From Rhodospirillales bacterium (GTDB taxonomy: Bacteria; Pseudomonadota; Alphaproteobacteria; Kiloniellales; JAKSDN01): 36,748 nt of DNA. Positions 4,470-19,531 of this stretch are shown here, piece after piece. The notes under the pieces are model-generated. The model was not told where the DNA came from. It did no database searches and saw only the letters and a program-made list of their open reading frames with translations. The stretch covers positions 1 through 36,748 of the forward strand of contig JAOUCL010000015.1 of assembly GCA_029859805.1 (NCBI GenBank), in the 5' to 3' direction. Numbering within the stretch: the first letter of the stretch is position 1; each line of letters opens with the position of its first letter. The position numbers were made by a program, and so were the translations under genes.

Positions 4470-4567
4470 CGGTCTCGATATCTGCTAGGTGGAATGGCGA
4501 CGTGAAATGTCGGTTATGTCGGTTGTTGCATCGAAGCCGTGAAGCGGACGGTTGGGAAGGAGGCAAT

Positions 4568-5281
4568 ATGAAACGGCTAATCACCGCTTTGTTGGTCACT
4601 GCACTGGTCGGCTGCACGAGCGCGCCCGTCCTGGACAGCGATTCGAATAGCTTTGCGGAGCGACTGGTCGCTTACCAGTCGGCGGCCTGCTGTGTCGCGA
4701 TCCAGGAAATGACGGTGGAGCCACTGAAGGAGAGCAGTCTCGTTGCCTTCAGCATGGAAGAGAACGTTGAGAAGGTCAGCTTGCCGACGGGACCCAGCCT
4801 CTACAAAGCCATAAAGCTCCCCGATGAGAAGGTCACATACTATTTCAAGCTTCGAAGCCTGGTTCTCGAGGACGAGCAGACCAAACAGAAGGCGGCTGTC
4901 CTGCCGGTGGTCGCTGTCCTGAACGACGATTTCTCGCTGTCGCGACTCTCGACTTTGCAGAATCTCTCATATGACCATTGGACGGTGTGGCATCCATATG
5001 ATCACTTCAACATTTACATAAAGGTGGACCGCCAGGCGAACCCGACTGAGCGCTATGTCCTGATTTTCACGCCAGCGGCGCTGTTGGACAAAGAGATGAG
5101 CTACTCACGGTCCCCCAGCACTTGGAATCTCACCGTACCGAGCGGCGGCGCACTAACGACCTACCCCGTACAAAGCCGCGGCATCAAGTTCGATCTTCGC
5201 GCGCTGCCCACCGGTTCGCTGACCATCGAGCACATCACGAATCCGCTAAACAAGCCCTACGACTACGTAATCCGATTCTAG
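4568..5281 (+). CDS. Lipoprotein, possibly MalM-like
   Basis: A 237-residue protein. The start at 4568 is set by the strong AAGGAGG at about 4557-4563; longer in-frame starts lack such a site. The N-terminus MKRLITALLVTALVGC is a typical lipoprotein signal with lipobox LVGC and lipidated C16. The mature part has a CC pair soon after the N-terminus, a G-x-S-L-Y-K-A-I-K-L-P segment and a later P-V-V-A-V-L-N-D-D-F segment. This resembles the layout of MalM, a periplasmic protein of unknown function from maltose operons, but the match is from memory and weak. No maltose genes are nearby. Codon use and GC are clearly lower than in polA, suggesting recent acquisition. It lies directly next to a transposase element. 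Confidence 0.75.
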   Translation: MKRLITALLVTALVGCTSAPVLDSDSNSFAERLVAYQSAACCVAIQEMTVEPLKESSLVAFSMEENVEKVSLPTGPSLYKAIKLPDEKVTYYFKLRSLVLEDEQTKQKAAVLPVVAVLNDDFSLSRLSTLQNLSYDHWTVWHPYDHFNIYIKVDRQANPTERYVLIFTPAALLDKEMSYSRSPSTWNLTVPSGGALTTYPVQSRGIKFDLRALPTGSLTIEHITNPLNKPYDYVIRF

Positions 5282-5353: not shown

Positions 5354-6325
5354 TTACGACTGCTCCAGCTCTCGCCGGATCCGCTTCACCCGCCGGGCCA
5401 GCGCCGGGTCCTGGGCGACCTCCCGCCGGAAGCGGCCCACGGCGCTCGAGGCGCCGGCGGTGTGGCCGAAGCCGAAGGCCTCGGCGATGGCCGCGAGCGG
5501 GTGGCCGCCCAGGGTCCGCGCCAGGCCGATGGCGGCGTCGCGCGCCGGGTTGCGCTTGCCGCGGCCGCGGGTCGGGGTGAGCAGGCTCTTGCGCGGCTGA
5601 CCGAACTCCGCCGCCGTGGCCGCGATGATCCGCGCCAGGCTCGGCACGTCAAGGCGTCGGCGCAGCGCCGCCTCGGGCTGGACGCGCGCCTTGGCAAGGC
5701 GCCGCGCGACCTCCTGCCGGAAGGCCCGGCCGCCCAGCACCGGCTCGAGCCGGCCGCGCCGATAGAAGGCGGCCGTGTCCTCGTCCAGCCCCTCGGCCAC
5801 GAAGGCGCGGTAGCGCTCGCGCGCGCCGCGCTTGCCGAAGCCGGCCAGCGTCGCCTCCAGGTGCAGCCACTCGGGCGCCGCCACGCGCCCCAGATAGGCC
5901 GGATAGCTCGACCAGCGCCAGGCCTCGGGCCGGCGCACCAGGCCGGCCATCACCGGGTTCAGGTGGATGTAGCGGCCGACGGCGGCGAGATGCGCCTCGG
6001 CCTCGATCAGCACCGCCTTGTAGCGGCCGCGGAAGATCGGCCCGTCGCGCCGGGCCAGGCGGTTGGCGCGCTGGGTGAAGAGCCCGCCCAGGTGGCGCAT
6101 GGCCCGGCCCAGGTTGCCGCGCGGCGTGCGCAGCAGCAGGTGGTAGTGGTTGCCCATGAGGCAGTAGGCGTGGGTCTCGACCCCGAAGGTCTCGTCGAGC
6201 TCGCCCAGCAGGTCGAGGAAGAGCCGCCCCTCGGCCGGCCCGCGGAAGACCTGCCGGCGCCCGGCGCCGCGGTTCATCACGTGATACCAGGCGCCCTCGT
6301 ACTCGATGCGCAGCGGCCGTGACAT
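5354..6325 (-). CDS. REP-associated tyrosine transposase (Y1, IS200-like)
   Basis: A 323-residue Y1 HUH nuclease of the TnpA-REP group. The N-terminal catalytic domain starts MSRPLRIEYEGAWYHVMNRG. It carries the two metal-binding histidines in GNHYHLLL (H60 and H62) and a candidate nucleophile Y119 in GRYIHLNPVMAGLV. The C-terminal extension (about 225-323) contains a helix-turn-helix-like segment as in the subgroup with a DnaA C-terminal-like domain. The family processes single-stranded DNA at REP-type hairpins. All catalytic residues are present and the frame is intact, so it may be active. The start is the ATG at 6325. A decayed second copy of its 5' end lies 0.7 kb to the right. Confidence 0.93.
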   Translation of the reverse strand: MSRPLRIEYEGAWYHVMNRGAGRRQVFRGPAEGRLFLDLLGELDETFGVETHAYCLMGNHYHLLLRTPRGNLGRAMRHLGGLFTQRANRLARRDGPIFRGRYKAVLIEAEAHLAAVGRYIHLNPVMAGLVRRPEAWRWSSYPAYLGRVAAPEWLHLEATLAGFGKRGARERYRAFVAEGLDEDTAAFYRRGRLEPVLGGRAFRQEVARRLAKARVQPEAALRRRLDVPSLARIIAATAAEFGQPRKSLLTPTRGRGKRNPARDAAIGLARTLGGHPLAAIAEAFGFGHTAGASSAVGRFRREVAQDPALARRVKRIRRELEQS

Positions 6326-6543: not shown

Positions 6544-6957
6544 ATGCCGTCACAGTTGCCGATCCCGGGCTACGCACGCTGGGCCTACTTCGGCCTCGGC
6601 TGGCTGTTCTTCGGCCTCGGCGTGCTGGGCGCCTTCTTGCCGGTGCTGCCGACCACGCCGCTCATGATCGTCGCTCTCTGGGCGTTCTCCAAGAGCTCGA
6701 CGACCTTCCAGCGCTGGCTCTATACCCACCGGGTGTTCGGGCCGCCGCTGCAGCGCTGGCAGCAATACCGGGTGATATCGCCCACAGCGAAGCTGGCCGC
6801 GGTCGGCGCGATGGCGGCGAGCCTCGGCTATCTCGCCGCCTTCACGGCCGCGCCGCTGGCGCTGCTGCTCGTCACCGGCGGCCTGATGCTGGCGGCGGCC
6901 TGGTACATCCTCTCTCGTCCCAGCAGGCCGCCCGCCGCCGAGCGCAGCGCCCCCTGA
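6544..6957 (+). CDS. YbaN family (DUF454) inner-membrane protein
   Basis: A 137-residue protein with the DUF454 hallmark, GWLFFGLGVLGAFLPVLPTT followed by PLMIVALWAFSKSS. It has a hydrophobic hairpin near the N-terminus (about residues 13-50), a basic middle segment (RWLYTHRVFGPPLQRWQQYR) and two more hydrophobic helices (about 80-120). The family is widespread, sits in the cytoplasmic membrane and has no firmly established function. The start at 6544 is chosen for its AGGAGG. The gene is sandwiched between an intact RAYT element and a RAYT remnant. The stop at 6955-6957 lies two bases from the remnant, so the last few residues may have been reshaped by that insertion. Confidence 0.9.
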   Translation: MPSQLPIPGYARWAYFGLGWLFFGLGVLGAFLPVLPTTPLMIVALWAFSKSSTTFQRWLYTHRVFGPPLQRWQQYRVISPTAKLAAVGAMAASLGYLAAFTAAPLALLLVTGGLMLAAAWYILSRPSRPPAAERSAP

Positions 6958-6958
6958 A

Positions 6959-7099
6959 CGGCCCGCCCGCGGAAGACCCGCCGGCGCCCGGCGCCGCGGT
7001 TCGTCACGTGATGCCAGATGCCCTCGTACTCGTTGCGCAGCGGACGCGACCTGCGGAGAAGGCTGGTCGAAAAAAACAATTAAAACAAGACCCGACCCC
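6959..7099 (-). pseudogene. Remnant of a second RAYT transposase (5' end only)
   Basis: Bases 6959-7052 closely match the first 31 or so codons of the intact transposase at 5354-6325, in the same orientation (minus strand SRPLRNEYEGIWHHVTNRGA). The start codon has decayed from ATG to AGG (7052-7050), and homology stops abruptly at about 6959. The flanking motif TTAAAACAAGACCCGACCCC survives at 7080-7099. The remainder of the gene is absent. This is an old truncated copy, not a functional gene. Confidence 0.85.
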
Positions 7100-7192: not shown

Positions 7193-7375
7193 ATGCCGCT
7201 TTGGCAGCGCATTGGGATTACGCTCGTCGCAATCGTCGCGGCAAGCTGGGGCGTCGCGGTGCTGGTCGAGACGCTTCTGGGCCTCGCCGTGCCGAGCTAT
7301 CTGTCCGGCGTCGTCGGCGGCTTGGCCGCGCTGCCGGTCTGGGAGTTCTTGAAGCGCGTCGGCCCGCGCCGCTAA
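7193..7375 (+). CDS. Small hypothetical membrane protein
   Basis: A 60-residue frame starting MPLWQRIGITLVAIVAASWG and ending LPVWEFLKRVGPRR. Two hydrophobic stretches (about residues 7-28 and 33-50) are separated by a short polar turn, with basic residues at both ends, as in a small two-helix inner-membrane protein. GGAAGGG lies about 9 bases before the ATG at 7193. A longer in-frame start at 7103 would overlap the RAYT remnant end and is not favoured. No family is recognised. It converges with the PD40 gene, and a short GC palindrome (7377-7390) lies between the two. Confidence 0.6.
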   Translation: MPLWQRIGITLVAIVAASWGVAVLVETLLGLAVPSYLSGVVGGLAALPVWEFLKRVGPRR

Positions 7376-7400
7376 GCGGCCCCGGGGCCGGTGCCGCAGC

Positions 7401-8567
7401 CTACTGCGGCTGCGGAAAGGTCACGATCCAGTTCTCGACCCACAGCGGCAGCCCGCCCGAGGCGTTGACCGCGACCTGCACGACCAGGCGCCGGCCGTCC
7501 TGGTCCCAGTCGAAATCGGACACCACGTATTGGAAGTTGACCGGATCGCGGTCCTGGTTCATGGCCGTGATCTGGTAGGTCTCCTCGCCCTTTTTCAGGA
7601 ACAGCTCGGTGCGCAGTCCGGATACGCCGACGATTGGCCGCCAGCCGAACGGGCTGCTGGAGTTGTAGGCAAGCGAGGCCCCCGAGGGCGAGTAGGTGGC
7701 ATGTTCGGTCCAGGACGTCGGTTCCTCGGTAAGCCGGGCCGCCGAGGTGCCGGCAATGGTCGCGGCGTAGGAGTCCTGGACGAAGAGCCCGGCGCCCTCC
7801 GGCGTGAAGGAAAAGGTCATCCAGCCCTGCAAGGTCCCGGCGAATCCGTGCGTCTCGTAGAAGCCGGCGCCCGCCGGCTGCAGCGCCGCGTGGCTCGTCA
7901 GCCGGTTCTGGCCGAGGCGTGCGATATCCACGTCCGACCTGTGGATGTGCCAGCGCAGCCACGGGTTCGCCGACCAGAGCTTGGAGGCGAAGATCAGCTG
8001 CGTGCCGAATCGGTTGAAGTGGGGATGCAGGGCGGCCTGGCCGGCCGGGGTGTCGTAGACCTTCTGCGCCTGGGCGCCGTCCTCCTCGAGCATCCACAGA
8101 TCGTTGTTGATGCCCCACGAAGGGTGCTCCTTGAAGCTATCGGTGGAGTGCTCGTTCTCTACCTGAACCAGCAGCAGCTCGCCGCCCAGCGGATACCACT
8201 CCGGCTGGCCGACAAGCTCCCCATAACGGTCGTCGGGCGCGAGATTGCGGGCGAGCTCCAGGCCGGGTGAGTCGCAGGTCACGCAGCGCCGGTCGCTGCC
8301 GTCCGGGTTGATGGTGAAGACCTCGATGCGCCCCGGCGCCACATGCGAGTCGAAGGCGATGCGCTCGTGCTCGCCGCCGCGGTACCACGACACGCGGCCG
8401 CCGTCGCCGGCGATCAGCAGCTCGAAATCGACCCAGCCGATGCCGGTCACGTAGCGCTCATAGCCGATCGGGGCTTCCTGGGCCCGAACCTCCGTGTGGG
8501 TTCCATAGCCGAGCATGACGAGACCACTGGCGACGGCGGCAAGGGCGTTTTCGGTCAATCGTCTCAT
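7401..8567 (-). CDS. Secreted PD40-type beta-propeller protein
   Basis: A 388-residue protein. The start at 8567 is fixed by AAGGAGG a few bases upstream; an in-frame start at 8678 lacks this. A Sec signal peptide ends near VRA-QEAP (residues 29-30), so the protein is predicted periplasmic. The mature part consists of WD40/PD40-like blades as in TolB: IEVFTINPDGSDRRCVTC (CVTC at 95-98), SWGINNDLWMLEEDG, ALHPHFNRFGTQLIFAS, YSPSGASLAYNS and FDWDQDGRRLVVQV. It is clearly paralogous to the lipoprotein at 10001-11191, sharing SWGINNDLW, ALHPHF, YETHGFAG and LRTELFLK. Ligand and partners are unknown. It is the last gene of a three-gene minus-strand cassette. Confidence 0.85.
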   Translation of the reverse strand: MRRLTENALAAVASGLVMLGYGTHTEVRAQEAPIGYERYVTGIGWVDFELLIAGDGGRVSWYRGGEHERIAFDSHVAPGRIEVFTINPDGSDRRCVTCDSPGLELARNLAPDDRYGELVGQPEWYPLGGELLLVQVENEHSTDSFKEHPSWGINNDLWMLEEDGAQAQKVYDTPAGQAALHPHFNRFGTQLIFASKLWSANPWLRWHIHRSDVDIARLGQNRLTSHAALQPAGAGFYETHGFAGTLQGWMTFSFTPEGAGLFVQDSYAATIAGTSAARLTEEPTSWTEHATYSPSGASLAYNSSSPFGWRPIVGVSGLRTELFLKKGEETYQITAMNQDRDPVNFQYVVSDFDWDQDGRRLVVQVAVNASGGLPLWVENWIVTFPQPQ

Positions 8568-8699
8568 CCTGTGTCCTCCTTTTCGACAGCTGCCGCGCCG
8601 ACGGTGCGGGTCTGGCCCCGCGGCGGGCGGTAGACGGTCACGGGTGACGTAACGCCGTCTCGAGTTCGGCGCCGCCAATGGCGTGATAGCAAGCCGGTC

Positions 8700-9812
8700 T
8701 CACGGCCCGCTCCTGCGCTGTACGAGGTCCTGGAACGCATGGAAGGTCGGGGTCCGCTCGCCGCGGGCGATCGCGGCGGCGACCGCCCGGTTGTACGCGG
8801 GATCCAGGGCGCCCTCCGCATCCTCCAGGTAGGTGAAGAAGGTCTGGGTCCAGAACGGCGTCATCGATTCGAGCCCCCAGGCGCTGGCATAGGCCGCCAA
8901 GGTCTCGAGCCATTTGATGTCCAGGTCCATGAACGCGGAATCGCCGACTCCCGCCGCGCTGATCTCCTCCAGCGTCATGCCGGGCCGCGGCACGTAGTAG
9001 GTGTTGCGCCAGGTCTCCTCGATGTAGACCGGCTTGGTCCACTTCCGCGCCGTGCGGATCATGTCGTTGTAGGTCTCCAGGTCATCCAGCTTGTAGATGT
9101 CCAGCGTCATGACGTCGATCACGCCCAGGCTGGCGAAAGCGTTGAAATACGCCTTCTCCCACGACAGGCCGCCGGCCCCGCATCGGGTGCCGGGCGACTG
9201 TTGCTTGACAATCAGGGCGGCCTCCCTGGCAAAGTCGCGCCAGGCTCTCGGGCCTACGGCGATGCCCATCCGGGCCGCCATCGTGGTGGGCTCGTGGACC
9301 ACGACGAAGATCTCGGGCCGATAGCGCCGCGCGAGCGTGGCGTAGACTTTCAGGGCCGCGGCCCGCCACGCGCTGAAGCTCGTCATCCTGTGATAAACGG
9401 CGGAATACTGGGGGTTCAAGGCGATCCGGACGCCGGCGTCGCGGATGTGTTGGATGAGCGCGTCGTATTTGGCGATCGTCACCTGGTCCCCGTCGAGCCA
9501 CGGGAAGAGGCCCGTATTGATGTCGATGCGCTCGACGCCGGTTTCTATCAAGGCATCGGCGTAGTCGAGGAGGGTCTGCAAGGGGACACGCTCGATCACG
9601 GTCTCATGGGCGTAGAACAGGTTCGCACCGAACTGTAGAGGATGCTGCGGCTGCGCGCTGGAGATCGCGTAGATCTCGTCCAGCGCCGCGTCCATGCGCG
9701 CGATGAATTCGTCCTCCGTCAGCGTCTGGGCGCCGCTGCAAGCCGGCAGGAGACAGAGCGTCGCCAGACCGACCGTCAACGATATCGCCAGAGCCTTTAC
9801 CGTGGGTATCAT
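8700..9812 (-). CDS. Lipoprotein with glycoside hydrolase clan A-like TIM barrel
   Basis: A 370-residue protein starting at the ATG 9812, with AGGGAG upstream. The signal ends in lipobox LPAC, giving lipidated C25. The body reads as a (beta/alpha)8 barrel: ETGVERIDINTGLFPW, AGVRIALNPQYSAVYH, EIFVVVHEPTT, VIDVMTLDIYKL, KPVYIEETW and GLESMTPFWTQTFF. E174 (in VVHEPTT, the end of a strand) and E265 (in VYIEETW) sit where clan GH-A glycosidases place the acid/base and the nucleophile. The usual N-E pair is H-E here, so activity is not assured. I cannot assign a GH family or substrate. Its place between two paralogous propellers suggests a shared role in binding or processing an extracytoplasmic glycan; that is inference. 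Confidence 0.8.
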   Translation of the reverse strand: MIPTVKALAISLTVGLATLCLLPACSGAQTLTEDEFIARMDAALDEIYAISSAQPQHPLQFGANLFYAHETVIERVPLQTLLDYADALIETGVERIDINTGLFPWLDGDQVTIAKYDALIQHIRDAGVRIALNPQYSAVYHRMTSFSAWRAAALKVYATLARRYRPEIFVVVHEPTTMAARMGIAVGPRAWRDFAREAALIVKQQSPGTRCGAGGLSWEKAYFNAFASLGVIDVMTLDIYKLDDLETYNDMIRTARKWTKPVYIEETWRNTYYVPRPGMTLEEISAAGVGDSAFMDLDIKWLETLAAYASAWGLESMTPFWTQTFFTYLEDAEGALDPAYNRAVAAAIARGERTPTFHAFQDLVQRRSGP

Positions 9813-9953
9813 GCGTCCACACTCCCTATGATGCCTACGCGCCGAGCGCAGCTATCTAGAGCACATCTTCTGCTACTTTGCAAGACAGAGTAGTGGCTTT
9901 CGAAAAAGCGGCTGTGCGTGAAGGTCGCTCGCCCGGTATTCACACGGTTAATA

Positions 9954-9980
9954 CCAAAGGTCATTATCAGTGACCTTTTG
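9954..9980. repeat. Short CCAAAGGTCA palindrome, solo copy
   Basis: CCAAAGGTCA (9954-9963), a 7-base centre TTATCAG, then TGACCTTTTG (9971-9980). The arms are the same as the outer ends of the terminal repeats of the element at 19548-19850, and a TA precedes the left arm. It looks like a minimal or internally deleted copy. It lies about 20 bases past the stop of the lipoprotein gene ending at 10001 and could act as a hairpin terminator for it. Confidence 0.7.
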
Positions 9981-10000
9981 TGTAAGCGCCCGGCAGAGGG

Positions 10001-11191
10001 TTACTGCCGCGCGGAGAAGGTGATCATCCAGATCTCGGGGGACAGCACATTCCGCAGGCTGTCGGTGACGGGGGCGACCTGTGCGGCAATTCGCCGGCCG
10101 GCGCGGTCCCAGGAATAGTCCGACACCAGATAGCGGTAGCGCGGGTCCCGCAGCCGGTTGAAGTCGGTGACCTGCAGGACGCTCGGGCCGGATTTGAGAA
10201 ACAGCTCGGTGCGAAGGCTCCGGGCGTCCGAACCGGGGAAGCGCCACTCGGGATCGGCGCGGCTCGAGACGAAGGCCAGGGCGCCGCCGGACGGCGAGAA
10301 GCTGCCGTGCTCGTCCCAGGTGCCCGGGCTGTGGACCAGCGCCCGACGGCCGGACCCGTCGGCGCGCGCGACGAAGATGCCGTCGACGTAGTTGCGCCCG
10401 CCGGCGGTATGGCTGAACAAGATCCGGTCGTCGCCGGCAAAGCCATGGGTCTCGTAGAGACCCGGCCGAGATTGGAAGAGCACGCGGTGATTGGACAGGA
10501 TCGCCTCGCCGCGCCGGCTCAAGTCCACCTCCGCAATATGGATGCGCCATCCATCCCAGGGGTTCTCGCCGCCCGCGCCCATCCTTTGCAGCCGTGGGCC
10601 GCCGATCGCCTTGCCGGTGGCTACCCGCTCGGCGAAGAGCACGCGCCGGCCGCTGTCGTCGAAGTGGGGATGGAGCGCACCGTGGTTCTTGGGCGACCGC
10701 CAGATCCGCTCGGCGCGCCTGCCGTCGCGCGACACCAGCCACAGATCGTTGTTGATGCCCCAGGACATGTGGTTGAACAGCCGGTGGCCGGCGTTCTCGT
10801 TCTCCGCCTGCACGATCAGGTGCTCGCCGTCCGGATGCCAGGCCGGCTGGCCGATAAAGCCCTTGGGGATGGGCGTCCGGCAGGTGACGCAGCTCGCCGC
10901 CGAGCCGTCCGGCTTCATGATGAAGACCTCGGTGTTGCGGCTGCGCGCGTTCACGACGGCGTCGTAGGCGATCAGGCCGTGCGTCCCGCCCTTGTACCAG
11001 TCGAGCCGTCCGCCGGACGGCGTGACCAGCCGGATCGATTCGACGACCGGCTTGGCTTCCTCGGCCGGTCCGACCTGCGCGGGCGGCGCGGGCGCGCTCC
11101 GGCAGGCCGCGACAGAGGGCAGTAGTGCCAACGCCACCGCGACAATCAGGGCATCGCGATGCACGTGCTTCACCTTGCCGGACAAAACCAT
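10001..11191 (-). CDS. Lipoprotein with PD40-type beta-propeller
   Basis: A 396-residue protein. The start at 11191 is chosen because an AGAGG precedes it and it places a signal with lipobox VAAC (C30) at the N-terminus; longer in-frame starts (to 11314) would bury the signal. The propeller blades include TEVFIMKPDGSAASCVTC (CVTC at 101-104), SWGINNDLWLVSRDG, ALHPHFDDSGRRVLFAE, SFSPSGGALAFVSS and YSWDRAGRRIAAQV. It is paralogous to the protein at 7401-8567 but lipid-anchored rather than free. TolB-like propellers usually bind proteins or small ligands; the ligand here is unknown. It is the first gene of the minus-strand cassette and is divergent from padR across a 251-bp gap. Confidence 0.85.
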   Translation of the reverse strand: MVLSGKVKHVHRDALIVAVALALLPSVAACRSAPAPPAQVGPAEEAKPVVESIRLVTPSGGRLDWYKGGTHGLIAYDAVVNARSRNTEVFIMKPDGSAASCVTCRTPIPKGFIGQPAWHPDGEHLIVQAENENAGHRLFNHMSWGINNDLWLVSRDGRRAERIWRSPKNHGALHPHFDDSGRRVLFAERVATGKAIGGPRLQRMGAGGENPWDGWRIHIAEVDLSRRGEAILSNHRVLFQSRPGLYETHGFAGDDRILFSHTAGGRNYVDGIFVARADGSGRRALVHSPGTWDEHGSFSPSGGALAFVSSRADPEWRFPGSDARSLRTELFLKSGPSVLQVTDFNRLRDPRYRYLVSDYSWDRAGRRIAAQVAPVTDSLRNVLSPEIWMITFSARQ

Positions 11192-11442
11192 CTCTAGACC
11201 TCTTGCAGTGGTGGCATCCAATCGCGCGTTTACAGCGTCACAGACGCCGAGGTGATCGGGAAGCGAGCCCAAGGCCCCCCAATACCTGACCCTTGGTAAA
11301 CCCTTGGTTTCCATCCAGCCGGACCGTCCGGCGCCTCACAAGGTAGCGGGGGCTGCGTTCCATCGCCTGGGCTGGCGGGTTAGGTTTGCCCTCAACAAGA
11401 AGAGTGATAAGACTTCCTGGATCGGCGAGACGGCGTGGGATC
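11192..11442. promoter_or_regulatory. Divergent promoter region, PD40 cassette versus padR
   Basis: This 251-bp gap lies between the first gene of the three-gene exported cassette (minus) and padR (plus), so it must contain promoters in both directions. PadR proteins commonly repress adjacent genes. A TTGCCC at about 11386-11391, followed by a TGATAAG at about 11405, is the best promoter-like pair on the plus strand, but its spacing is short. No clear PadR palindrome was identified. Confidence 0.35.
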
Positions 11443-11847
11443 ATGGCGCGCGACCAAGGGGCCAAGAGCAAAGCGGCAGGCGAGAGGACGATCGGCGGGC
11501 GAGCGGCCGAATCCAATCCGTGGGTCTCGCAGATGCGCAAGGGGCTGCTCGAGTTCCTAGTGCTTGCGGTGCTCAGGCGTGGCGAGGCCTACGGCTATAT
11601 CATCTTGAAGGAGCTCCGGGGGTTCGAAGGCCTAAGCCTGACCGAGAGCACCGTGTATCTTCTGCTCGCGCGGCTTACCAAGGACGGCCTGCTGCGGGCC
11701 CGAAAAGCGAGGTCTCCGGAGGGCCCCCCCCGGCGCTACTATAGTCTGACGGCGACCGGGCACCGCCGCCTTGTCGACATGACGGCGTACTGGAAGGCCA
11801 TCACCAAGAGCGTCGATCACGTGCTCGCCGCGGGCGAGAAGCGGTAG
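11443..11847 (+). CDS. PadR family transcriptional regulator
   Basis: A 134-residue protein. After a polar N-terminus of about 25 residues it has the PadR winged helix: MRKGLLEFLVLAVLRRGEAY followed by GYIILKEL, LTESTVYLLLARLTKDGLL (recognition helix region) and the wing RRYYSLTATGHRRL. The short form, with no long C-terminal dimer domain, is typical of PadR subfamily 1. The ATG at 11443 is preferred over 11386 for lack of conserved sequence upstream, but no strong ribosome binding site is visible. It lies 5 bases before a HAAS-type membrane protein gene, the usual partner of short PadR proteins. Confidence 0.9.
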   Translation: MARDQGAKSKAAGERTIGGRAAESNPWVSQMRKGLLEFLVLAVLRRGEAYGYIILKELRGFEGLSLTESTVYLLLARLTKDGLLRARKARSPEGPPRRYYSLTATGHRRLVDMTAYWKAITKSVDHVLAAGEKR

Positions 11848-11852
11848 CCGTC

Positions 11853-12341
11853 GTGGCGGTTCTCAGCATCGAAGCGAACGAGCGTCTCGAGGCCTACCTC
11901 GCCGACGTTGCCGAAATCCTGCGGGGCGACGGTCACGACCTGGTTGATATCAAGAACATTATCGACAGCCTGCGCGAGCAGATCTACGAGATCGCCACCG
12001 TGGACGGGCAACGACCGGCGTCACTGGACGAGATCGAGCAGGCGCTTGGCGAAATGGAGCCGCCGGACGCCTTCCGGGCGGCGAGCCGCGTGCTGGCCAT
12101 CAAGACCAAAAACCGCGCGACCAAACGTGCGCTCGCCTACCTCAGCGCCGGGCTCAGCATGGGCGCCGTGCTGATCTACTTCGCCGTTGCGGCGGTCTAC
12201 CATCCGGTTCCGGCGATCTTCGGTTTCGGTCAGGTCACGGCGCTCGCCGCCGGCGCGGCGAGTTGGTCCGAGCCTGTCGGTCGATTTGGGGCGATCTGCG
12301 CGGCCCTGTTCATCGTCGGCAGCTTCTTCAGGCCCGGATGA
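11853..12341 (+). CDS. HAAS/DUF1700-like membrane protein paired with PadR
   Basis: A 162-residue protein starting at GTG 11853, 5 bases after padR. The N-terminal 80 residues are predicted helical and acidic (NERLEAYLADVAEILRGDG, NIIDSLREQIYEIA, SLDEIEQALGEMEPPDAFRA). This fits the HAAS/DUF1700 cytosolic domain that accompanies PadR regulators. Two membrane helices follow (about 95-118 and 135-158) with a short hydrophilic loop. In the known arrangement the pair controls a nearby transporter or envelope function. Here no transporter follows, and the divergent exported cassette is the nearest candidate target. Confidence 0.7.
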   Translation: MAVLSIEANERLEAYLADVAEILRGDGHDLVDIKNIIDSLREQIYEIATVDGQRPASLDEIEQALGEMEPPDAFRAASRVLAIKTKNRATKRALAYLSAGLSMGAVLIYFAVAAVYHPVPAIFGFGQVTALAAGAASWSEPVGRFGAICAALFIVGSFFRPG

Positions 12342-12820
12342 GCCCGGTCGAAACCGCTCGATGATCGGTGAAAGGCAGCGTCTGTGTTTCGCAACCTCAC
12401 CATACGGATTCCAGCTGCCTTGTCCGAGTTGTTCATGGACACGCAAGACCTGTGCGATGGGCCCTGCGGCTGCCGTTCCACGAAAATCGCGACGGAAGAC
12501 AGCGTGACTCTAGACGTCATACCCTGTTATGTCCGACGAAGGCCAAATCATCCCCGGTTCGCCAGAGCTCGAACATCAGGCTGCCGGTGATCGCAGTCCG
12601 GTTCGACCCGAAGCGGATATCCGGTATGGTCTCGATCGAGGGTCCGCCGGATTTGCCGAGGCGCCGTCGCGGGAGGCTCGGGGTGCAAGATCGCGGGCCT
12701 GAAAAGAAGGGACTTTGGTTCCTGGTGGGCTCTTGGCACAGTGGAAGCCCCGCCAAGGTCGCCTTCGGAGTCCCGCCGGCCGCCGCCGCGGGGCGGAGAC
12801 GAATGAGGAGGGAAACCGCC
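12342..12820. other. Non-coding gap of about 480 bp, no clear feature
   Basis: No frame in this gap has a convincing product. A GTG-initiated frame from 12384 (67 residues, starting MFRNLTIRIPAALSELFMD) has moderate amino-terminal character but becomes Arg/Pro-rich and unconvincing. The region has somewhat lower GC than the flanking genes and may hold decayed sequence. The last 15 bases contain the GGAGGG ribosome binding site of the next gene. Confidence 0.4.
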
Positions 12821-17129: not shown

Positions 17130-17263
17130 CTATGAGCGGGGTGCCGACGAAACGCCATGGGTAGCAGACCGCACGGCCCGGCGACAAATGGAAAACCTAT
17201 GAGCGGGGTGCCGACGAAACGCCATGGGTAGCAGACCGCACGGCCCGGCGACAAATGGAAAAC
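17130..17263. repeat. Perfect 67-bp tandem duplication upstream of aminotransferase gene
   Basis: Copy 1 is 17130-17196 and copy 2 is 17197-17263, identical base for base and directly adjacent. It lies between the aminotransferase start (17111) and the metallopeptidase stop (17279). Each copy includes CCATGGGTAGCAGACC. Being identical, the duplication is probably recent. It may double a promoter or operator of the aminotransferase gene. Confidence 0.95.
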
Positions 17264-17278
17264 GGCCTGCGAGGTTCG

Positions 17279-17959
17279 TCACCTGAGGAGCCGGATCCAG
17301 CGCCACAGGTTGAGCAGCGAGGCGAGCGAGGAGGCGACGTAGGTGAGCGCGCAGGCCTTGAGGATCCGGCGCGCCGCCGGCAGGTCGGCCTTGGGCATGT
17401 AGCCGCCCTTGTCGAGAATCGGCAAGGCGCGGTTGAAGCTGGCGTCGAACTCGACCGGCAGGGTGACCGCGTGGACCAGCACCGAGATCGACATGACCAG
17501 AATGCCGGCGCCGAGCTCGATCACGATGATTGCCGGCGAGCGCGTGAGCGCGCCCAGCAGCGGCGTGGCCAGGAGGATCATGGAGCCGGCGCGCTCGAAG
17601 ACGTGGGTCGACTTGACCAGCCGGGTGCGGGTCTCGAGCGGCGGGTACTTGTCGCTGTCCTGCAGGGCATGGCCGACCTCGTGGGCCGCGACCGCCACGG
17701 CGGTCAGCGAGCGGCCGCCGAGGTTCTCCCGGGTCAGGCGCACGGCCTTGTCGCTCGGATCGTAGTGGTCGCCCTCGTCCGTCGCCTCGACCTTGACGGC
17801 CTGGAGACCGGACTCGTCCAGCAGATGGCGCGCCAGCTCGCCCCCGGTACCCGGAAAGTCCGGCCGGTCGTCGCCGTGCCAGGCCAGGATTCCGCGGGCC
17901 CAGAGGGTCGGGCCGAAGACAAGGGCGAAAACGGCAATTCCGCCGAGGATATAGATCAT
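17279..17959 (-). CDS. YugP-type neutral zinc metallopeptidase, membrane
   Basis: A 226-residue protein of the PF04298 family. The N-terminal helix is [20 protein letters not shown]. The zinc site HEVGH gives H93, E94 and H97. Further hydrophobic helices lie at about 118-160 and 200-222. [21 protein letters not shown] is the conserved segment before the active site. The family resembles membrane metalloproteases of the HtpX type, but physiological substrates are not established. The start at 17959 (MIYILGG) has AGGA 9 bases upstream; the longer frame to 18010 adds an Arg-rich, unconserved stretch. It faces ahcY divergently and could be followed by the aminotransferase in one transcript. Confidence 0.92.
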
Positions 17960-18130
17960 GGCCGCAATCCTAGCATGCCGACGCCGGACGGTCCCGGACC
18001 GGCCGGCCATGTTGGCAGGCGAACATTAACGGCCTGTTTGCGCCTTTACGCCATTGTCCCCGGCCGCCCTTGCGGGCGCCTGCCGCGCCTGTTACATGAG
18101 CCACCGGATCCAAGCCGCGAGGGGTTTCAG

Positions 18131-19531
18131 ATGACGGAGTTCACCGACTACAAGGTCGCCGATATTGCGCTGGCCGACTGGGGGCGCAAGGAGATCGACC
18201 TCGCCGAGACCGAGATGCCTGGCCTCATGGCCCTGCGCACTGAATACGGCGGCAAGAAACCGCTGAAGGGCGCGCGCGTGGCGGGATCCCTGCACATGAC
18301 GATCCAGACCGCGGTGCTGATCGAGACGCTGCAGGCGCTGGGCGCCGAGGTGCGCTGGGCGTCCTGCAACATCTACTCGACCCAGGACCACGCGGCGGCG
18401 GCGATCGCGGCCGCCGGCACGCCGGTCTTCGCCTACAAGGGCGAAAGCCTGCCGGAGTACTGGGACTACAGCCATCGGATCTTCGAGTGGGCCGACGGCG
18501 GCACGCCCAACATGATCCTCGACGACGGCGGCGACGCGACGCTGCTCATCCACCTCGGCATCAAGGCCGCGCAGGACGCCTCGGTCCTTGCCAAGCCCGG
18601 CAGCGAGGAGGAGGAGGCGCTGTTCGCCGCGATCGAGAAGCGGCTCGCGGAGAAACCGGGCTGGTATGCCGAGGTCGGCGCCAACATCCGCGGCGTGACC
18701 GAAGAGACGACTACGGGCGTCCATCGCCTCTACGAGATGGCGAAGGACGGCTCGTTGCTGTTCCCGGCCATCAACGTCAACGACTCGGTGACCAAGTCCA
18801 AGTTCGACAACAAGTACGGCTGCCGCGAGAGCCTGGTCGACGGAATCCGGCGGGGCACCGACGTGATGCTGGCGGGCAAGGTGGCGGTGGTCGCGGGCTA
18901 TGGCGACGTCGGCAAGGGCTCCTCGGAGTCCCTGCGCAACGCCGGCTGCCGCGTCATGGTGACCGAGGCCGACCCGATCTGCGCGCTGCAGGCGGCGATG
19001 GAAGGCTATCAGGTGGTGACCATGGAGGACGCGGTCGGCGAGGCCGACCTCTTCGTCACGGCGACCGGCAACGTCGACGTGATCACGCTCGACCACATGC
19101 GCGCCATGAAGGATCGGGCCATCGTCTGCAACATCGGCCACTTCGACAATGAGATCCAGGTCGAGGCGCTCAGGAACTTCAAGTGGACCAACATCAAACC
19201 GCAGGTCGACGAGATCGCGTTCCCCGACGGCAAGCGCATCATCCTGCTCTCCGAGGGGCGGCTGGTTAACTTGGGTAACGCGATGGGCCATCCGAGCTTC
19301 GTCATGAGCGCCTCCTTCACCAACCAGGTGCTGGCGCAGATCGAGCTCTGGTCCAATCCTGGCAAGTACGAGCGCGAGGTCTTCGTGCTGCCGAAGCATC
19401 TGGACGAGAAGGTTGCCGCCCTGCACCTCGAGAAGGTCGGCGCCCGCTTGACCACGCTCAGCCGGAGGCAGGCCGATTATATCGGCGTGCCGGCCGAAGG
19501 GCCCTTCAAGCCGGACGCCTACCGCTATTGA
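18131..19531 (+). CDS. ahcY: Adenosylhomocysteinase (S-adenosylhomocysteine hydrolase)
   Basis: A 466-residue enzyme that reversibly splits S-adenosylhomocysteine into adenosine and homocysteine, relieving product inhibition of methyltransferases. Conserved segments include [30 protein letters not shown], the NAD-binding loop [13 protein letters not shown] (about residue 254) and the C-terminal FKPDAYRY. The length includes the roughly 40-residue insertion (about 150-190, [17 protein letters not shown]) typical of bacterial and plant type enzymes. The start at 18131 is supported by the conserved N-terminus; only a weak GAGGGG precedes it. A MITE-like element begins 16 bases after the stop. 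Confidence 0.98.

Follow-up and report, generated by a model that had tools for sequence, protein, structure and literature searches.

Families of clan GH-A, a group of glycoside hydrolases, share a signature in which Glu, preceded in most families by Asn, follows strand 4 of the barrel, Tyr follows strand 6, Glu follows strand 7 and Trp follows strand 8; in family GH26, His precedes the acid/base Glu. Among regulatory systems, PadR-HAAS dyads have been described as membrane signalling pairs (PMC11237479). Here we analyse a window of 36,748 nucleotides from a Rhodospirillales bacterium in which a putative GH-A-like enzyme, two exported beta-propellers, a PadR regulator and a small membrane protein are encoded side by side. 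We read the five genes as a regulated, probably acquired accessory island that would bind and hydrolyse an envelope glycan, and we give this reading an even chance of being right.

Organization of the Locus

Three adjacent genes on the minus strand encode exported proteins, with open reading frames and leaders all placed as the earlier note on this DNA had described them. The first (10001..11191) encodes a 396-aa lipoprotein with a PD40-type beta-propeller and the lipobox VAAC, with C30 as the anchor residue. The second (8700..9812) encodes a 370-aa lipoprotein with a predicted (beta/alpha)8-type barrel, a putative clan GH-A-like glycoside hydrolase, and a lipobox-like LPAC at C25. The third (7401..8567) encodes a 388-aa beta-propeller, a paralogue of the first, whose Sec-type leader has no lipobox Cys. 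With leader types called by eye from the translations, two lipid-anchored proteins and one free propeller emerge, in line with the earlier description. We take the three frames as coding because the propellers align to each other and homologues 46-47% identical to the barrel exist. The genes are separated by 188 bp (propeller/barrel) and 132 bp (barrel/soluble propeller), and the first gap holds an inverted repeat, ACCAAAGGTCA-N7-TGACCTTTTGT (9953..9981), a possible operator or weak terminator; given these gaps and the repeat, a single tight operon is not assured.

Divergent from the trio, on the plus strand, lies a gene for a PadR-type transcriptional regulator (11386..11847; Pfam PadR 3.2e-18, 65.9 bits, cut-off 27), the start of which may be a later ATG at about 11443. 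At least 194 bp separate it from the first propeller gene, and 5 bp after it begins a second plus-strand gene (11853..12341). The product of this second gene is a small membrane protein that resembles a HAAS partner by eye; it has a DUF3040 match below cut-off (E 0.0012), and HAAS profiles gave nothing up to E 1. PADLOC returned only a weak match of the PadR helix-turn-helix to Csa3.

An Accessory Block Missing from a Sister Genome

The same-genus genome G299 (locus L024) carries 143 bp in place of about 5.3 kb of the window (about 7374..12667, by alignment of the flanks), between flanks that match at 87-92% identity. All five genes described above, from the trio to the PadR gene and its small membrane partner, fall within this block. 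Gene order is kept in G299 for polA, the Y1 transposase, DUF454, a 90-aa membrane protein, a DUF4389 protein and flavin reductase. The sister genomes have no PadR orthologue, only a distant PadR at 35% identity. We consider gain more probable than loss, since no other relative searched (98 genomes) has the propellers, and the block is probably an acquired accessory island. The match of both flanks to the genus makes a foreign contig unlikely; a misassembly at the block is possible. No junction repeats longer than 8 bp were found at the block ends, so we propose no mechanism of insertion. At third codon positions the trio has a G+C of 0.88-0.89, similar to the host value, and composition therefore gives no sign of transfer. 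Searches with the lipoprotein propeller, the barrel and the block DNA returned no plasmid matches.

Outside the block, the window encodes a REP-associated (Y1) transposase that ends in a DnaA-like helix-turn-helix (5354-6325), and a second stretch resembling the start of this transposase lies near the left end of the island (6828-7079); both align to G299. A lipoprotein-like gene at 4502-5281 (MalM match, 1.4e-6) has a third-position G+C of 0.715, below that of its neighbours, and no alignable DNA was found for it at that place in G299. Farther along, a 758-aa open reading frame (17255-19531) matches S-adenosylhomocysteinase over residues 298-757 only, and the gene therefore probably starts later.

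Two Paralogous Propellers

The two propellers are 40% identical across 359 aligned columns (E 3e-78), and the motifs SWGINNDLW, ALHPHF, YETHGFAG and LRTELFLK are exact in both, which confirms their proposed paralogy. Both had also been called PD40 propellers. That assignment stands for the 396-aa lipoprotein, which passes the Pfam PD40 cut-off (1.9e-5; 24.9 bits vs 20.9), but the 388-aa soluble protein has no PD40 match of its own in Pfam and is assigned as a propeller through its paralogy with the PD40-matching protein. The AlphaFold2 model of the lipoprotein propeller, computed from a two-row alignment, is poor (pLDDT 49); its Foldseek matches are mostly propellers, and VIA-align returned generic WD40 propellers only. 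We rejected the identification of this protein as TolB, since it reaches 25.9 bits (E 4.3e-6) against the TolB equivalog model, for which the cut-off is 343.

The propellers might themselves be catalytic, in the manner of the metal-dependent lyase family PL22, with the barrel acting on their product. Such a division of labour would accommodate the weak match of the soluble propeller to Pfam Pectate_lyase22 (E 0.074), the presence of the Mn-bound PL22 structure 3pe7 among the Foldseek matches, and the retention in both paralogues of Q115, H174, H176, H249, H295 and D358 (P0003 numbering), which by inspection begin successive inner strands of the blades. The PL22 matches are, however, non-significant or common to many propellers, and histidines are conserved no more than expected, with no enrichment among the conserved residues (8/16, p 0.28). 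We regard catalytic propellers as very improbable, and the soluble propeller was rejected as a PL22 oligogalacturonate lyase at 12.2 bits against a cut-off of 30.

The Barrel and Its Candidate Active Site

The barrel has no significant match in Pfam, NCBIfam, PHROGs or PDB sequences. Its best Pfam match is PF11790 (GH128) at a non-significant E of 0.056, and NCBIfam gave none; the GH5 enzyme MtGlu5 was matched by profile at E 0.35, likewise non-significant, and recurs among the Foldseek matches, where nothing fell under E 0.001. On these non-significant profile matches the barrel is assigned to no named GH family. With the four-row family profile, scores equal to those of the GH-A matches also went to unrelated TIM barrels and to a poxvirus membrane protein, so the weak GH-A matches alone prove nothing.

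The AlphaFold2 model of the barrel, built from a two-row alignment that left out the L018 and phage homologues introduced below, is also poor (pLDDT 42). This low-confidence model places strands at 95-98, 129-132, 168-170, 210-212 and 262-266, and the conserved segments 61-65, 233-240 and 316-321 would bring the count to eight. The resulting order of strands and helices fits a (beta/alpha)8 barrel, from which, with all fold matches non-significant, we infer the fold.

Four family members were aligned: the window protein, two Nitrospirota proteins (L010 and L018) and the product of a tailed-phage contig (L040). Residues kept at predicted strand ends are F61-G-A-N64, H173-E174, D238/Y240, E266 and W321; H173-E174 and W321 are present in all four members, Y240 in three of the four, and E266 together with W268 in 3/3 of the members without a gap at strand 7. 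The exception is the L010 barrel (7869-9014), which departs at D238/Y240 and whose gap spans the strand-7 catalytic stretch; with a coverage of 2.4 in its contig title, the gap may be an assembly fault, or the site may have been lost. The proposal that two glutamates are placed as in clan GH-A agrees with the strand order and with the conserved residues at strand ends, and E174 was correctly named. The second glutamate was misnumbered: E265 is Ala in the phage protein, which makes E266 the likelier strand-7 nucleophile candidate. The residue before the candidate acid/base is His in all four members, not Asn, and since GH26 has His there, H173 does not exclude clan GH-A. On this sequence pattern the unnamed barrel family probably belongs to clan GH-A.

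The GH-A resemblance could nevertheless be superficial, and the protein a TIM barrel of other chemistry or a non-catalytic binder. The failure to match any GH family significantly would be expected of such a protein, an enolase-superfamily protein and hexulose-phosphate synthase are among the best weak matches, and the canonical Asn before the acid/base is replaced. It would have to be reconciled with His-Glu, Tyr, Glu and Trp at GH-A strand-end positions, kept across two phyla and a phage at 46-47% identity, and we consider it unlikely.

Distribution of the Genes

A scan of a collection of genome contigs with the barrel as query found one locus besides the window, L010, from a Nitrospirota genome (G391), and a sample of 346 genomes of that phylum yielded one further barrel locus (L011/L018). 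In the phylum of the window, overlapping draws of 299 and 349 genomes returned the barrel from the window genome only. The fourth member resides on a 60 kb tailed-phage contig (L040, IMGVR_UViG_3300015256_000001), where a leaderless 341-aa barrel, 47% identical to that of the window, is encoded at 8001-9026 in the replication region, close to genes for Erf, exonuclease, HNH, helicase and DnaB and downstream of one for a baseplate-like protein; this phage barrel found no match among phage records. Its occurrence, a single case, suggests that the barrel gene has passed between phages and bacteria in one direction or the other. The neighbours at the Nitrospirota loci, read from translations, are multihaem cytochromes and an NrfD-like protein for L010, and ribonucleotide reductase and diphthine-ammonia ligase for L018. 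Together with the phage replication genes, these neighbours do not point to glycan use.

The propellers, which were searched in genome samples rather than by the broad contig scan, do not accompany the barrel elsewhere. No recognisable propeller lies within about 8 kb of the L010 or L018 barrel or near the phage barrel, and G391 has no significant propeller match. The propeller pair was found nowhere else among 98 near relatives and 385 genomes of the class, and in all about 800 other genomes were searched without finding it. Matches to the propeller profile in other genomes are mostly short, PD40-like, and weak or partial; one in L019 (E 5e-17) extends over about 160 columns of a protein, 530 aa long, that lacks the shared His motifs and has no barrel nearby.

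These results bear on the proposal in the earlier note that the trio is a cassette whose products form an envelope complex. Adjacency, common export and a duplication that flanks the barrel are what a dedicated, conserved propeller-enzyme-propeller complex would produce. Yet all three of the other barrel loci (3/3) are without a recognisable propeller and the pair is missing from the genomes searched, so that a recurrent three-gene cassette was not recovered: in this small sample the genes are rarely together, an outcome that the earlier note had itself named as refuting its proposal. The trio has been seen only in the window genome, and a fixed or obligate three-protein complex is not supported. 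The note also left aside the PadR regulator, the small membrane protein and the lack of the whole five-gene block in a sister species. We judge the conserved envelope complex quite improbable.

Proposed Role of the Island

Under the accessory-island reading, the PadR regulator and its small membrane partner would be read divergently from the three exported proteins, which PadR would switch on as a set. The barrel would work as a lipid-anchored glycoside hydrolase of clan GH-A type with a retaining mechanism, cleaving a glycan or glycoconjugate either in the periplasm or at the outer membrane. Its putative acid/base is E174, which follows strand 4 and is preceded by H173, and its putative nucleophile is E266, which follows strand 7. 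The second, soluble propeller would have arisen by duplication, and the propellers may bind the substrate or product of the barrel, or partner proteins.

If the barrel is an active glycosidase, then an enzyme family that no searched library names occurs in Nitrospirota, in the window genome and in a phage, and its substrate is directly testable. A broader form of the proposal, which strikes us as somewhat doubtful, is that the barrel represents a new family within clan GH-A with exported bacterial and leaderless phage forms, here joined to duplicated propellers under PadR as a mobile glycan-processing module. Should the barrel not be an active glycosidase, the locus would be an accessory island of the ordinary kind, encoding exported proteins that are uncharacterised. 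The island shows a set of envelope proteins that one species has and its sister lacks.

Comparison with Known Systems

The regulatory pair resembles PadR-HAAS dyads (PMC11237479) in that the PadR gene is followed at 5 bp by the gene for a small membrane protein whose N-terminal part is helical. It differs in that the membrane protein has no HAAS match, the likeness being one seen by eye, and in its neighbours, which are exported enzyme-like and propeller genes rather than PspC/Toastrack.

The propellers compare with PD40/TolB-type propellers through the PD40 repeat, above the Pfam cut-off in the lipoprotein propeller, and through their propeller fold matches. They stand apart in scoring far below the TolB cut-off, in occurring here as two paralogues, and in their surroundings, since no Tol-Pal genes were seen around the locus.

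The barrel, finally, departs from clan GH-A in having no significant sequence match, no assigned family and His in place of the usual Asn. It is similar to clan members such as GH5, GH26 and GH128 in its predicted strand order, with a Glu following each of strands 4 and 7, a Tyr following strand 6 and a Trp following strand 8, and it shares with GH26 the His that precedes the putative acid/base Glu.
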